Positions 929 through 63,508 of a stretch of 64,000 nt of DNA are shown here, in pieces. The stretch spans positions 151,124 through 215,123 of the forward strand of contig JAHEAQ010000002.1 in the NCBI GenBank assembly GCA_024642705.1. Reading direction: 5' to 3'. The notes beneath the pieces were generated by a model. The model was not told where the DNA came from, did not search any database, and worked only from the letters and a program-made list of their open reading frames with translations. The position numbers and the translations under genes were made by a program. Every line of letters starts with the position of its first letter. The stretch's first letter is position 1. This stretch comes from Bacteroidota bacterium. GTDB taxonomy: Bacteria > Bacteroidota > Bacteroidia > Chitinophagales > Saprospiraceae.

Positions 929-2719
929 ATGGAAGAAAAAGAAGTCAAAAAGAAATTGACAAGGGAGCAGCTCAAAGAAGCTTGGGTAATGTTGGGATTT
1001 ATTAAACCTTATAAATGGTATTTTATTTCTGGTTTGGTATTATTATCGATTTCAAGTCTCTTAGTAATGGTTTTTCCTTGGTTAACCGGACAAATGGCTG
1101 ATATTGCGACTGGAAATGCGAAATATGGACTAGATTTCAATAAAGTAGCGATAATTCTTTTGATTTTGCTAGTAGTTCAGGGCATCGTATCCTATCTAAG
1201 GGTAATATTTTTTGCTCAAGTGAGTGAGCGGGGAATGGCAGATGTTCGAAAAAACTTATATCGAAAATTGATTACTCTTCCTGTTTATTTTTTTGAAGAA
1301 AATAGAGTAGGGGAGTTAATGAGCAGAATTTCATCTGATGTGGATCAATTACAACAGCTATTTTCTGTAACTTTAGCAGAATTTCTTAGACAGATTTTTA
1401 TACTTATTGTAGGCATTGCTTACATCGTTTATTCTGCTCCACAACTTTCACTCGTCATGCTTGGTTCGTTTCCATTTATCGTCGTAGGAGCAGTATTTTT
1501 TGGGCGATTTGTAAGAAGATTATCTAAGAAAAGACAAGAAGAACTTGCACAAACAAACATTGTTGTGGAAGAATCATTACAAGGAATAAGAACTGTTAAG
1601 GCGTTTACCAATGAATTTTTTGAATTTTCAAGATATTCTAAAAAAATACTAAATCTCGTTGGAATATCATTGGAGCTTGCAAAATACAGAGCACTTTTCT
1701 CTACTTTTATTATTGTTGTTTTATTTGGAGGTATATTTTCTATTTTATGGTATGGTTTCAAAATGGTGGATAGTGGTAGTATGACCATTGGTGAATTGAT
1801 AACATTCATAACATTTATGGCATTTATAGGAGGTTCGTTAGGAAGTTTAGGTACTTTTTATACACAAATATTATCGACTTTAGGAGGCACGGAGCGAATC
1901 CGAGAGATTCTTAATACTGCAGGAGAATTTGATATAGATACCGAATTGGAGCAACCGCAGATTTCACCTTTGGATCTTACTGGGCACATTAAATACGAGA
2001 ATGTGGAGTTTTCTTATCCAGCAAGACCAGATCTTCCAGTACTAAAAAGCATCAATCTTGAAGTGAAACCGGGTCAAAAGATAGCACTTGTCGGGCAGAG
2101 TGGGTCGGGAAAAAGTACAATCGTGCAATTGTTTTTAAGATTGTACAAATTGAATAATGGAAGAATCACGATCGATGGAAAAAATATAAATGAATTCGAT
2201 TTAACAGCATTCAGATCCCTCATTTCGATGGTTCCTCAAGATGTTTTGCTTTTTGGAGGCACTATAAAAGAAAATATTTCATACGGAAAAACTGGGGCGA
2301 CAGAAGAGGAAATTATTATGGCAGCTAAGCAGGCAAATGCTTACGAATTTATTGAAAGATTTCCTGAGCAATTAGAAACGATGATTGGGGAAAGAGGAAT
2401 AAAACTTTCCGGAGGACAAAAACAACGGATTGCCATTGCAAGAGCTATATTAAATAATCCAAAAATTTTAATTCTAGATGAGGCAACTTCTTCTTTAGAT
2501 TCAGAATCTGAAAAATTGGTCCAAGATGCGATGAATAAATTGATGGTTGGCAGAACTTCAATCATTATTGCACACAGGCTTTCAACCATATTGGATGTGG
2601 ACCAAATTTATGTTCTTGAAGGAGGAAATATAGTAGAACAAGGTACCCATTCTGAATTGGCCAAAAAGGTTGATGGCGCATATTCGAGCTTAGCAAAATT
2701 GCAATTTCAAAATACTTAG
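929..2719 (+). CDS. ABC exporter, fused permease and ATPase (MsbA/BmrA-like)
   Basis: A 596-residue half-transporter that should dimerise in the inner membrane and export a lipid or drug. Residues about 25-330 form the six-helix type-1 exporter membrane domain, with the usual coupling region ending VEESLQGIRTVKAF. The C-terminal nucleotide-binding domain has Walker A GQSGSGKST (residues 389-397), the signature LSGGQKQR (from 493), Walker B LILDEATS (D517, E518) and the H-loop IIAHRLST. Length is normal for the family. The start is the first ATG after a good promoter. MsbA-like lipid A export is possible, but the substrate cannot be read from sequence and no neighbour specifies it. Confidence 0.93.
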   Translation: MEEKEVKKKLTREQLKEAWVMLGFIKPYKWYFISGLVLLSISSLLVMVFPWLTGQMADIATGNAKYGLDFNKVAIILLILLVVQGIVSYLRVIFFAQVSERGMADVRKNLYRKLITLPVYFFEENRVGELMSRISSDVDQLQQLFSVTLAEFLRQIFILIVGIAYIVYSAPQLSLVMLGSFPFIVVGAVFFGRFVRRLSKKRQEELAQTNIVVEESLQGIRTVKAFTNEFFEFSRYSKKILNLVGISLELAKYRALFSTFIIVVLFGGIFSILWYGFKMVDSGSMTIGELITFITFMAFIGGSLGSLGTFYTQILSTLGGTERIREILNTAGEFDIDTELEQPQISPLDLTGHIKYENVEFSYPARPDLPVLKSINLEVKPGQKIALVGQSGSGKSTIVQLFLRLYKLNNGRITIDGKNINEFDLTAFRSLISMVPQDVLLFGGTIKENISYGKTGATEEEIIMAAKQANAYEFIERFPEQLETMIGERGIKLSGGQKQRIAIARAILNNPKILILDEATSSLDSESEKLVQDAMNKLMVGRTSIIIAHRLSTILDVDQIYVLEGGNIVEQGTHSELAKKVDGAYSSLAKLQFQNT

Positions 2720-2856
2720 TGCAACTTATTTAATTTACATTCGTCTTTTTTGTATAGTGATTTTTAGAACAAAGTTTCATGAGAATTTATTAAATAATTA
2801 TTTTTTACTTAATTTTTCTCATGGGTTATAAAAACAATCGAAACAAAATTAGAAAA

Positions 2857-3483
2857 ATGAAAAAAAATCTACTTATAGCTGCTCTTTTTCTTGCATTTAC
2901 AATTGCTGCAAAAGCACAAATCGGATTTGGTTTTGTAGGTGGCAATGATATTTATCAAAGATATACCAATCCTGAAGATGGTTCAGAGTCACGCTCGGCA
3001 GGTAATGCTATTTTGAATCTGCATTTTGGTCCCAAAATATGGGTCGGAGGACAAACATTTTCGGTGTCTGTTGAGACATATGCAAATTGGGGATCTACCG
3101 CTTTAAGCTTAAAAGATTATAAAGGTATGGGAGCTGCCGCATTTCCATTAATGGCAAAATTAAATTTTGGAGGGAACAGTGGATTTAATTCTGAATTGAC
3201 TTCTGGTTGGTCTATTGGAGGCGGATATCAAATTTCAAAAACAGAATTATACGGGCTAAATGAATTTTCTGCCCAGGAGGGTTTTGTCAGAGATTTTTAT
3301 CCTGTAATGATAGGTGAAATTTCATATGGTTATGGTATTTCTGGGTTTGTAACTGAAGTATTTGCTAGATATGGATGGAACACAGAAACTCATGCAACTA
3401 CATTAAACGTTGGAGTCAGTTATAATCTAAATATTATTGGCTTGAAAAAATTAGTGCGAAAGTTAGAGAAATTTGACAATTAA
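2857..3483 (+). CDS. exported protein, probably small outer-membrane or periplasmic beta-rich protein
   Basis: The ATG at 2857 is preferred over one at 2821 because it opens directly with a signal peptide (MKKNLLIAALFLAFTIAAKA, cleavage before Q). The mature part, about 190 residues, is rich in Gly, aromatic and alternating hydrophobic residues (IGFGFVGG, FGPKIWVGGQTFSVSVETYA, GGGYQISKTELYG, TTLNVGVSYNL). This suggests a small beta-barrel or beta-sandwich. The terminal KKLVRKLEKFDN is atypical, because outer-membrane barrels normally end in an aromatic residue. I do not recognise the family. It lies between the ABC exporter and murB, with its own gap on both sides. Confidence 0.8.
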   Translation: MKKNLLIAALFLAFTIAAKAQIGFGFVGGNDIYQRYTNPEDGSESRSAGNAILNLHFGPKIWVGGQTFSVSVETYANWGSTALSLKDYKGMGAAAFPLMAKLNFGGNSGFNSELTSGWSIGGGYQISKTELYGLNEFSAQEGFVRDFYPVMIGEISYGYGISGFVTEVFARYGWNTETHATTLNVGVSYNLNIIGLKKLVRKLEKFDN

Positions 3484-61308: not shown

Positions 61309-62571
61309 ATGGACACTTCTCGCCGAGTTTTTTTTAACAAGCTGACTATAGGTATTGCTGCTTCAACTATCATACCTAGGATAAATTTGCAGAGCGAGGA
61401 ACAAATATTTTTGAAAAATGGTGAGATTAATTGGGATGAAGTACGTAAAAATTTCCCCTTATCGAAAGAAAGAATTTATTTTAATAATGGCACATTTGGT
61501 CCTTCTCCAAATTCAGTTATCGAAAAAATGAAAAATCAAATTGATGAGATTAATGCAACAGGGGATTATGGCAGCACTTCTAGTACCATTAATTCTGTGG
61601 CACATTTCATTAATGCGGAAGAATCAGAAATAGCATTAACTCATAATACCACCGAAGGCATCAATATTATGGCTTTTGGAGTGAAAATGAAAGCTGATGA
61701 TGAAATTATTATGTGCAGTCATGAGCATGTTGGAAATGCAATGCCATGGTTAAATAGAGCAAAAAGAGATCATTTGAAAATTAGAGTTTTCGATCCTGGA
61801 AATACGAGAGAAGAAAATATTTCAGCAATTAAATCTTTAATCAATTCAAAAACAAGAGTTATTGCTATTCCCCATATTCCATGCACGACTGGTATTGTTT
61901 TTCCAATTGCAGAAATTGCAGAAATTGCGAGAGAAAAAAATATTATTACTGCAATTGATGGTGCACATGGAGTTGGTACATTTAATTTAGACATTCGTTC
62001 ACTTGGGGTCGATATGTACGCAAGTTGCTGTCATAAATGGTTACTAGGGCCGGCCGGGACTGGATTTGTTTTTATCAATAATGCCATTCTTCCAGATATT
62101 GAAGCAATTCATGTTGGTGCGTATTCGGATTCAGGATGGAAGTTGGACACGAAGGAACAAGAAATTCTAGGATTCAATCCAACTGCCCACCGATTTTTTT
62201 ATGGAACCCAAGGGAAAGCACATTTTAGTGGAGTAGATGCTGCTATTGATTTTCACCAAAATATTGGAAGTCAAGAAATTGAAGATAGAATAAGATTTCT
62301 TAACAATTACCTTTACCAAGGATTACAGCAGTTTCCAAAAAAGCTCGACATTCTAACTCCAAAAGAGTCTGTTTCAAGACTCGCGATGGTAAGTTTTAAA
62401 CCCAAAAATACCGACTATAAAGAGTTTGGTCATATATTAAATGAGGAAAAAATTCGCGTTAGACAAGTCCCAGAAAGTGGTCTTAATGCAATACGCATTT
62501 CTACACATATTTATAATTCAACGGAAGAAATCGATTATTTATTAAAAGTGATTGAAGATCGTCTTAAATAA
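61309..62571 (+). CDS. class-V aminotransferase/cysteine desulfurase-like PLP protein with Tat signal
   Basis: 420 residues. It starts MDTSRRVFFNKLTIGIAAST, a near-ideal twin-arginine signal (SRRxFxxK then a hydrophobic stretch). The fold-type I core has FNNGTFGPSPNSVIEKM, ITLTHNTTEGIN-type sequence (ALTHNTTEGINIMAFG), CSHEHVGNAMPWL, AIDGAHGVGTFNLDI and the PLP lysine in YASCCHKWLLGPAGTGF. The closest annotated relatives are isopenicillin-N-epimerase-like proteins. Export of a folded PLP enzyme fits Tat transport. The substrate is unknown. No Fe-S assembly partners are adjacent, so it is not a standard IscS/SufS. Confidence 0.9.
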   Translation: MDTSRRVFFNKLTIGIAASTIIPRINLQSEEQIFLKNGEINWDEVRKNFPLSKERIYFNNGTFGPSPNSVIEKMKNQIDEINATGDYGSTSSTINSVAHFINAEESEIALTHNTTEGINIMAFGVKMKADDEIIMCSHEHVGNAMPWLNRAKRDHLKIRVFDPGNTREENISAIKSLINSKTRVIAIPHIPCTTGIVFPIAEIAEIAREKNIITAIDGAHGVGTFNLDIRSLGVDMYASCCHKWLLGPAGTGFVFINNAILPDIEAIHVGAYSDSGWKLDTKEQEILGFNPTAHRFFYGTQGKAHFSGVDAAIDFHQNIGSQEIEDRIRFLNNYLYQGLQQFPKKLDILTPKESVSRLAMVSFKPKNTDYKEFGHILNEEKIRVRQVPESGLNAIRISTHIYNSTEEIDYLLKVIEDRLK

Positions 62572-62944
62572 AAGGTAGGACTAAAAATGATTTTTTAAAA
62601 TAGGCTGATATTTGTTAGTAATTATAGCTTAGTAGTAGCTTATTAAAAAATTGATGATAAAACCATTAATTGAATATTTCGAAAAGTTTCTTTCATTATA
62701 CGAAAAAGAAAAGTCACCCTTGAAAGTAATTTAAATTGATTTTACTTACCTAGAATTTATTTAAACCCGTATTTGCATTAGACATTCTATTTCTACTGGA
62801 AATGACTGCAAAATATACTGCTGCACTAAGTTTTTGTCATGCACCATAGTTGTAGCTATGATTTAGTCCAAAACTTCAGATTTTATTGCCATTTCAAGTC
62901 TCATTGCGAAGCCCCAATGCATAATGCTGGTTAAACCTAATTAT
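62572..62944. other. 373-bp intergenic region, half of it a long palindrome
   Basis: The first 180 bp show no ORF or RNA gene. The remainder is the inverted repeat annotated at 62751-62947. The flanking genes converge here. Confidence 0.6.
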
Positions 62945-62947
62945 CTA
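62751..62947. repeat. ~195-bp nested palindrome (MITE-like element or structured RNA)
   Basis: Four successive arm pairs face each other. The outer TAGA..TTTAAACC and TGCATT (62751-62780) pair with AATGCA..GGTTAAACCTAATTATCTA (62916-62947). GAAATG (62799-62804) pairs with CATTTC (62890-62895). AAGTTTTTG (62828-62836) pairs with CCAAAACTT (62868-62876). CATAG (62845-62849) pairs with CTATG (62856-62860) around a 6-nt loop. The right end includes the stop codon of the GNAT gene. Confidence 0.65.
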
Positions 62948-63508
62948 CAATATTTCATGGTAATTTTTCACAATAGAATAGAAATTGGTGTCTCGCAGTT
63001 TGTCTTCTTTTATAAAACTCGATTTGTGAATTCCTTCATAATTAAAGCCAGCGTTTAATAATGTTTTGGAAGAGGCTAAATTATTTGTAAATACATTGGC
63101 TTCTAATCTAAATAATGCTTTTTCTTCAAAACATATCTCAATAAATTTTTGAATGACCATTGTCATAATACCTTGATTTCGGTAATCTTTTCCGATCCAA
63201 TACCCGAATTCAGATTTATGTGATTCTACGCCATGATTGAATAATAGGCCTATTCCACCAATCATTTCTTCATTGTATCGTATTGCGTAGTTGCAAATTT
63301 GATGATTCATTTTTTCAAATTTTCTACAAATTGAAACAAAAATTTTTGCATCTTTTAATGTGTAGGGGAAAGGAATAGTTAGGGTGTTTTCATAAATCTC
63401 GCGATCATTAATATGGTTTACAATGGATTGGGCATCAGTAATTCTGACTTCGGTTATTGTTATATTTTGACTCAGTATGTAATTTGCTTTTAATTTTTTA
63501 CCCATCAT
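62945..63508 (-). CDS. GNAT-family N-acetyltransferase (RimJ/RimL-like)
   Basis: 187 residues; ATG 63508 or the next codon, 63505. The RimJ/RimL-type acetyltransferase pattern is seen: ITEVRITDAQSIVNHINDREIYENTLTIPFPYT, YAIRYNEEMIGGIGLL, and the acetyl-CoA-binding segment FGYWIGKDYRNQGIMTMVIQKFIEI. RLEANVFTNNLASSKTLLNAGFNYEG closes the domain. It may acetylate a small molecule or a protein N-terminus; the substrate is unknown. Its stop codon lies in the arm of the large palindrome. Confidence 0.9.
   Translation of the reverse strand: MMGKKLKANYILSQNITITEVRITDAQSIVNHINDREIYENTLTIPFPYTLKDAKIFVSICRKFEKMNHQICNYAIRYNEEMIGGIGLLFNHGVESHKSEFGYWIGKDYRNQGIMTMVIQKFIEICFEEKALFRLEANVFTNNLASSKTLLNAGFNYEGIHKSSFIKEDKLRDTNFYSIVKNYHEIL

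Follow-up and report, generated by a model that had tools for sequence, protein, structure and literature searches.

Two convergent genes enclose the feature described here. In the window, by which we mean the whole 64,000-nt stretch of Bacteroidota DNA that was analysed, a class-V aminotransferase gene (61309-62571, + strand) and a GNAT acetyltransferase gene (62945-63508, - strand) flank a 165-nt element at 62766-62930, which sits downstream of both stop codons. The element is a copy of a dispersed repeat with terminal inverted repeats (TIRs) of 16-17 nt, and it stands between two 5-bp target-site duplications without strand, TTAAA at 62761-62765 and TTAAA at 62931-62935, read from the sequence with the TTNAA rule supplied by the element sets. 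Comparison with alignments of other copies places the left TIR, CCCGTATTTGCATTAG, at 62766-62781 (+) and the right TIR, CCAATGCATAATGCTGG, at 62914-62930 (+). Relative to the consensus CCCGCATTATGCATTAG, the left TIR of this copy has lost one base and changed another, and its right TIR differs at the end from other copies, most of which finish in GCGGG. The interior (62782-62913, +) consists of conserved unpaired stretches beside the TIRs and of covarying inner stems, as delimited by alignment, covariation and covariance model. At its apex, sequence and fold prediction place the hairpin CATAG-TTGTAG-CTATG (62845-62860, +).

The element ends short of the neighbouring genes. An earlier note on this DNA had described a palindrome from 62751 to 62947 whose right arm supplies the GNAT stop codon; that interval extends past the left duplication by 10 nt and past the right one by 12 nt, and the stop codon (62945-62947, -) lies outside, nine bases (62936-62944) beyond the right duplication. 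Nor was the stop created by the element, since the GNAT homologue in the same-genus genome G002, which aligns over residues 2-182 of 187, ends within a few codons of this position. The GNAT domain in the window is complete (PF13302 positions 2-138 of 138). In G002 (L302, about 1430-3390) the GNAT homologue lies near a homologue of the window's 63544-63960 gene, the two being separated by a frame of 373 codons. Next to them the aminotransferase is absent, so that the neighbourhood is only partly conserved. G001 has no orthologous site, and the partly syntenic GNAT region of G002 holds no orthologous empty site. Reading the sequence for an intrinsic terminator, we found no T run directly after the stem, which is followed by TTAAACCTAATT on the + strand and TTTAAATAAATTC on the - strand. 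No Rfam family matched in the window at its gathering score, and among seven loci searched at E<=0.1 the sole match was Flavo-1, below its gathering score and mostly outside the element. This match (RF01705; L276, 1655-1795) scored 29.5 bits, the gathering score being 42, and overlaps the element end by 12 nt.

The fold is present, yet is unexceptional when taken alone. The nested arms around a 6-nt loop noticed earlier do run end to end through the element, but their folding energy is ordinary against 200 dinucleotide-preserving shuffles (z of -0.65 for DNA, +; -0.11 for RNA, +; -1.15 for RNA, -). The lone sequence would therefore not justify a finding; the excess comes from comparing copies. 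Within the window there is one copy only, as had been reported: the covariance model matches only 62766-62930 (E 5.1e-30, +), scoring the same interval on the - strand as expected of a palindrome, and the DNA search agrees, the part of contig C28 that the window covers giving one other match, with an E of about 1.

Elsewhere in the host genome (G000) we find about 30 copies or remnants. With a cut-off of E<=10, a DNA search returned 73 matches, of which many are weak or are pieces of one copy. The covariance model, built from 28 sequences that include three other copies of the host genome, matches 30 of 31 given host loci at E<=0.01 (the exception is L024), counting truncated copies such as L008, L019, L057 and L060. 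Contigs of this draft genome end at or close to some of the copies; L008, for example, runs to the end of contig C63. The short form (the window copy and L002-L004) measures 165-167 nt between duplications; most long-form copies have 236 nt, their apex being enlarged by about 70 nt. In the long form (L005-L022) these extra nucleotides hold two small hairpins, and the CCAAAACTT arm of short-form copies (L001, L003) is missing. A divergent subfamily (L023, L025, L026, L057) sits inside a second dispersed repeat. A profile with one host copy (L023) in its training set matches L002-L004 end to end (E 2e-31 to 1e-36). By eye, the flanks of short- and long-form copies are unrelated, and similarity stops at TTNAA-CCC...GGG-TTNAA. 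The copies are short (about 165-236 nt), non-coding, multiple and dispersed, with unrelated flanks except within the second repeat, as is characteristic of a miniature inverted-repeat element (MITE).

The flanking 5-mers are target-site duplications. Taken just outside CCC...GGG, they are identical in 66 of the 95 elements of a first set, left after 7 overlapping or spurious TIR pairings among 102 rows had been dropped before counting. Where TTNAA stands on both sides, the middle N is the same in 66 of 77 elements, against 30.4 expected and at most 46 in 20,000 permutations. This direct agreement counts for duplications, because the symmetry of the TIRs alone would not yield it. A second set of 46 model-found elements, none of them in the first, has 22 identical 5-mers, ten elements with non-matching ends (nine from G327, one from G467) being kept in the count; with TTNAA on both sides the N agrees in 20 of 22 (8.2 expected, at most 16 in 5,000 permutations). 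At those loci (L283, L298 and L317-L323 of G327; L285 of G467) the ends do not match the TIRs, one end being ATGGAA, and the interior matches the model. Host copies in the first set have identical 5-mers in 13 of 21 cases. The window copy is absent from that set owing to its shortened TIR, and its own flanks read TTAAA on both sides. Copies in the same genome and short target duplications, which the earlier note had proposed to look for, are thus both found.

A paralogous empty site is preserved in the second dispersed repeat. Copies of this repeat without the element hold a single TTAAA where L023 has the element between TTGAA copies: C98 reads GGAG-TTAAA-GTCGC and L023 reads GAGAG-TTGAA-[element]-T-TTGAA-TCGC, with one extra T. 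The second repeat, in which the divergent MITE subfamily has landed, occurs at about 18 host places (L023 1440-1800, L058, L059, L060, L066, L067, L069, L070, L072 and others), starts GTTTTTCAACAGCATA, has GGAAAAATGCCTTTGAAAAAC near its end, carries inverted repeats of its own and is sometimes in tandem. We rejected an insertion sequence or gene as its identity, the frames opened by its terminal AAGGA..ATG having at most 25 codons.

Relatives of the element are patchily distributed across Bacteroidota, and most are 166-168 nt long, carry the TIR CCCGCATTATGCATTAG and contain no gene. A right-TIR pattern occurs in at least 106 stretches of an 84,980-species collection. The 80 titled stretches among the matches listed are all Bacteroidota by name, with Saprospiraceae, Aquimarina, Winogradskyella, Algoriphagus, Echinicola, Labilibacter and others represented; viral contigs gave 0 matches to the TIR pattern. 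The covariance model detects the element in 19 of 295 genomes of the class, the host's own included. DNA search gave matches in 3 of 60 genomes (G000, the host itself, with G007 and G015), and two same-genus genomes had no DNA match to the element. Taking as genes mechanical non-overlapping ORFs of 80 or more codons, and after 7 TIR-only elements among the 95 were dropped, a gene lies on both sides of 73 of 88 elements in the first set and of 38 of 46 in the second; 4 of 134 elements fall within such an ORF (1 of 88 and 3 of 46, respectively).

The element is very probably a MITE moved by IS1380 transposases, given that the same TIR, at mostly TTNAA sites, ends IS1380-family transposase genes. 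This right TIR terminates such a gene in Algoriphagus chordae and in one Flavobacteriaceae genome. At the A. chordae right end the exact TIR lies on the transposase C-terminus (PF13701, E 1.6e-9, above cut-off); the 109-residue transposase fragment there matches NF033539 at E 6.7e-14, below the whole-protein cut-off. Among 13 insertion sequence (IS) right ends fetched, the 17-nt TIR is exact in nine and has one change in four, and ten stand at TTNAA. At L127, L132, L166 and L153 the transposase stop codon lies within the right TIR, gene and transposon end sharing bases. An IS1380 on a plasmid of Aliarcobacter cibarius, a campylobacterotan, is seen with both its ends, CCCGCATTATGCAATAG and CTATTGCATAATCTGGG, and is flanked by ATAAT as its 5-bp duplication; its TIR has one mismatch, at the left end. 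In Bacteroidota our searches recovered single IS1380 ends and no copy with both TIRs; some of these ends have three changes, such as those beside IS1380 genes of two other genomes (L254, L271).

In some genomes transposase and element occur together. The C-terminal transposase fragment is confined to 2 of 150 family genomes, each of which also has the element. A co-occurrence check was positive for seven of nine genomes or records, a figure without matched control, as five of the seven had been reached through TIR hits and the sensitivity of the search differs from that of the 295-genome survey. G061 has the IS right end and no element match, and the transposase fragment of G071 is 42% identical with an internal stop. 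Across 38 TIR-bearing genomes an IS1380 model matched at E<=0.001 in 13 and reached the family cut-off in one; such weak matches mean little, because the same search was positive in 6 of 14 control genomes. In the host, neither PF13701 nor the C-terminal fragment found a match (0 for each). This lowers the claim of present activity rather than that of origin, since the transposase could have been lost. Similarity to the insertion sequence seems, by eye, to end at the TIR, so that descent of the interior from it is not part of the claim.

Comparison of copies shows that the pairing is maintained. Alignment A1 comprises 28 sequences aligned by sequence alone, drawn from 31 listed non-redundant elements by leaving out L040, L141, L149, L156, L160 and L192 and adding L003, L034 and L218, three additions that make it not wholly non-redundant; L040 and L157 were turned round after a profile test. 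In A1, 84.1% of cells are standard pairs against 70.2% when shuffled, and 240 cells have changed on both sides against 80.1 (sd 7.2) in shuffles. Sliding the partners by 1-3 columns leaves 35-55, a control that is partly circular because the RNAalifold structure was lengthened by hand. Twenty-four sequences outside A1 gave 210 double-sided changes against 73.6 shuffled (maximum 93) and 46-71 slid; 19 of these sequences were model-found, a selection that leans towards pairing, and no fewer than four (L036, L157, L165, L168) come from A1 genomes. Helix 1, the TIR plus two pairs, has 87.9% of cells paired, one TIR end being ascertained since it served as the search pattern for many rows, and helix 7, the equivalent of the window's apical hairpin, has 94.6%. 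Variation in the interior is higher at paired sites (32%) than at unpaired sites (21%). Its more constant parts include columns 142-144 (13%) and the internal-loop stretches that adjoin the TIRs (11% and 17%). This pattern of variation belongs to a maintained structure. The earlier note had named single-copy status everywhere with no conserved pairing as evidence against its proposals, and neither is what we observe. Its proposal of a miniature inverted-repeat element is borne out by the dispersed copies, sharp TIRs and 5-bp duplications, and by an IS1380 transposase with the same TIR elsewhere; its suggestion of a structured RNA stands in part, as a structured nucleic acid, in that the fold is backed by covariation.

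We consider it likely that the window holds a decayed, non-autonomous MITE copy mobilised by IS1380 and probably now inert, and that the fold is a trait of the propagating lineage. An IS1380-family transposase, encoded by an element of its own with the same TIR and type of target site, would have moved the MITE in trans, and the window copy would have landed between the two convergent genes. There it is probably an inert relic, no IS1380 transposase being detected in the host genome. The fold may be kept because the folded strand helps the element to spread or to be tolerated on landing, and probably not for a service of each settled copy to the host.

Divergence among the host's own copies suggests where the constraint acts. 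In 16 long-form copies, paired sites diverge by 4.8% and unpaired sites by 3.4%, or by 4.3% and 4.0%, according to the fold used; the insert diverges by 3.1% and the TIRs slightly more, by 5.1% and 6.6%. These figures replace an unpaired rate calculated earlier for own copies, which was unreliable as the model leaves insert columns unaligned. Because paired and unpaired sites diverge alike, the constraint seems to fall on the propagating lineage and not on settled copies. Single changes against Watson-Crick double changes number 20 to 0 in G446, 13 to 0 in G327, 85 to 7 in G000, 9 to 2 in G015a, 12 to 1 in G015b, 28 to 5 in G477 and 7 to 1 in G503. In G253, which mixes subfamilies, there are 25 singles and 37 Watson-Crick doubles, with 16.6 doubles expected since changes are shared. 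Most simply, these counts mean that copies drift once settled and that the fold is kept by lineages still on the move. This contrast is one that we infer, as divergence times differ between the sets and the host's doubles exceed expectation (7 Watson-Crick doubles, against 2.6 of any type).

The same excess would suit an IS1380 MITE in which pairing is kept by mutation, template switching during replication copying one arm of the quasi-palindrome onto the other. Most double changes are indeed Watson-Crick, and some of the TIR changes that occur in just one or two copies have their match on the opposite arm (L007, L022, L041; L048 with L049). Yet the recent clusters in G446 and G327 show singles without doubles, and copying should erase the asymmetric internal loops, which persist and vary less than the interior pairs. 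We regard this explanation as unlikely.

A strand asymmetry in the mismatches bears on what kind of molecule folds. In the + strand interior of A1, A-C mismatches outnumber G-T pairs by 62 to 28. Over 49 non-redundant sequences the ratio is 97 to 44 (A-C higher in 30, lower in 4), over the 29 of these outside A1 it is 50 to 25, and in the 24-sequence set outside A1 it is 55 to 31. An RNA fold of the reverse strand, the GNAT sense here, with G-U wobble would fit this excess. The asymmetry is suggestive only, because an excess of A-C over G-T, at about 59 to 41, is already expected from column composition alone, and because own copies show none: their single changes give G-T 18 times and A-C 16 times, or 27 and 26 in another count. 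Over eight sets, single changes give A-C 50 times and G-T 42 times. A possible but tentative extension of our reading is that a folded single strand, either reverse-strand RNA or single-stranded DNA, is required for movement or protects it, with selection acting on the mobile lineage.

Alternatively, the element could be a structured RNA that serves the host at each site, as a 3'-UTR stabiliser, terminator or regulator, and that was spread by transposition and kept for its function. The strong covariation, the excess of A-C over G-T on the + strand and the mostly intergenic positions all agree with this. However, function at each site is hard to reconcile with the like divergence of paired and unpaired sites in host copies, with single changes in own copies that give G-T and A-C about equally, with an A-C bias that composition predicts, and with two same-genus genomes that lack a DNA match. 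In the first set reverse-strand genes were favoured by 28 to 14; the second set gave 11 to 14, so that the preference did not replicate. We think a host-serving RNA quite improbable.

Equally doubtful is a MITE moved by a transposase of another family that shares, by chance, a CCC-ended TIR and AT-rich 5-bp targets. Such a mover would account for the lack of an IS1380 transposase in the host and for the few convincing ones in other carriers, but it would leave to coincidence the match of the TIR to the A. chordae IS1380 end at 17 of 17 nt, the TTNAA sites of both, and the presence of the element in both family genomes that were found by transposase alone. A chance hairpin without biological history, for which only the unexceptional folding energy speaks, is refuted by the roughly 30 copies or remnants, the relatives across the phylum, the duplications and the covariation.

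The IS1380-mobilised MITE resembles several known systems and coincides with none of them. IS1380 insertion sequences (PF13701 / NF033539) share the TIR CCCGCATTATGCATTAG, the TTNAA preference and, where both ends are seen, the 5-bp duplication; the element differs in having no transposase gene, a length of about 167 nt and an interior that is unrelated by eye. Like ERIC/IRU/RU-1 of enterobacteria, it is short, dispersed, formed as a long stem-loop and present in a wide group of hosts (PMC2229807). There ERIC is 127 bp long, with TA termini and a 7-bp TIR in its table, and its effects on transcripts depend on its orientation (PMC2229807). In comparison with that account, our element has 165-168 nt, a 5-bp TTNAA duplication, a 17-nt TIR, hosts in Bacteroidota and an identifiable IS partner. 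We considered and rejected its assignment to ERIC on length and TTNAA flanks, which depart from 127 bp and TA; the two are set apart by the description of ERIC rather than by its sequence. Correia/NEMIS, CIR and other bacterial MITEs are likewise small and dispersed, and stable stem-loops are predicted for their transcripts; TIRs and duplications are described for Correia/NEMIS and, for CIR, a structure phylogenetically conserved between Caulobacter and Brucella (PMC2229807, PMC10969869). Their ends and targets differ from those of our element. PMC10969869 has no mention of IS1380 or of Bacteroid- or Flavobact- names.

Mobilisation by an insertion sequence has a parallel in the same phylum. 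Cardinium is a Bacteroidota endosymbiont. Its lineage-specific MITE of about 240 bp is derived from IS982, with the parental IS in the genome, according to PMC9769881. Like ours, it is a MITE tied to an IS; it differs in its IS982 parent, in being lineage-specific and in having that parent in the genome. The ends of piggyBac are also of CCC type. The target of piggyBac is TTAA (PMC7351741), and IS1380 has served as outgroup of piggyBac trees (PMC10813416). PiggyBac differs from our element in its TTAA as opposed to TTNAA, a 4-bp target, and in being eukaryotic, with transposases only distantly related.

Searches of the open-licence literature for IS1380 MITEs of Bacteroidetes and for the TIR strings returned no paper, and among the matches listed for similar topics none describes this element in its title or the opening of its abstract. 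New here are the element family, how far it has spread in Bacteroidota and the covariation along the full length of its fold. The phylum thereby gains a dispersed element in the style of ERIC whose IS partner can be identified, and the 141 copies over both duplication sets form a natural experiment in which the constraint on settled copies can be told apart from that on the lineage that propagates. If the reading of the fold is true, compensatory evolution proceeds between subfamilies while settled copies drift, and a mobile structured nucleic acid extends across Bacteroidota. Should mobility depend on the fold, the usual view that MITE hairpins simply follow from inverted ends would have to be revised.

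The TIR itself seems to carry several MITE types. Seven loci (L114, L149, L160, L182, L191, L202, L203; 173-281 nt) have the same TIR and little interior match to the profile. A TIR pair about 1,015 nt apart at L191 was considered as a single IS; by eye, the reading frame that it encloses was not recognised as a transposase, and the pair is taken as two separate elements. Bases 4-5 of the TIR vary between genomes and are mostly equal at both ends, giving CCCGC, CCCAG, CCCGG, CCCAC and CCCAA (L276, L281, L280, L291, L299 and others), variants that perhaps track different IS1380 variants.
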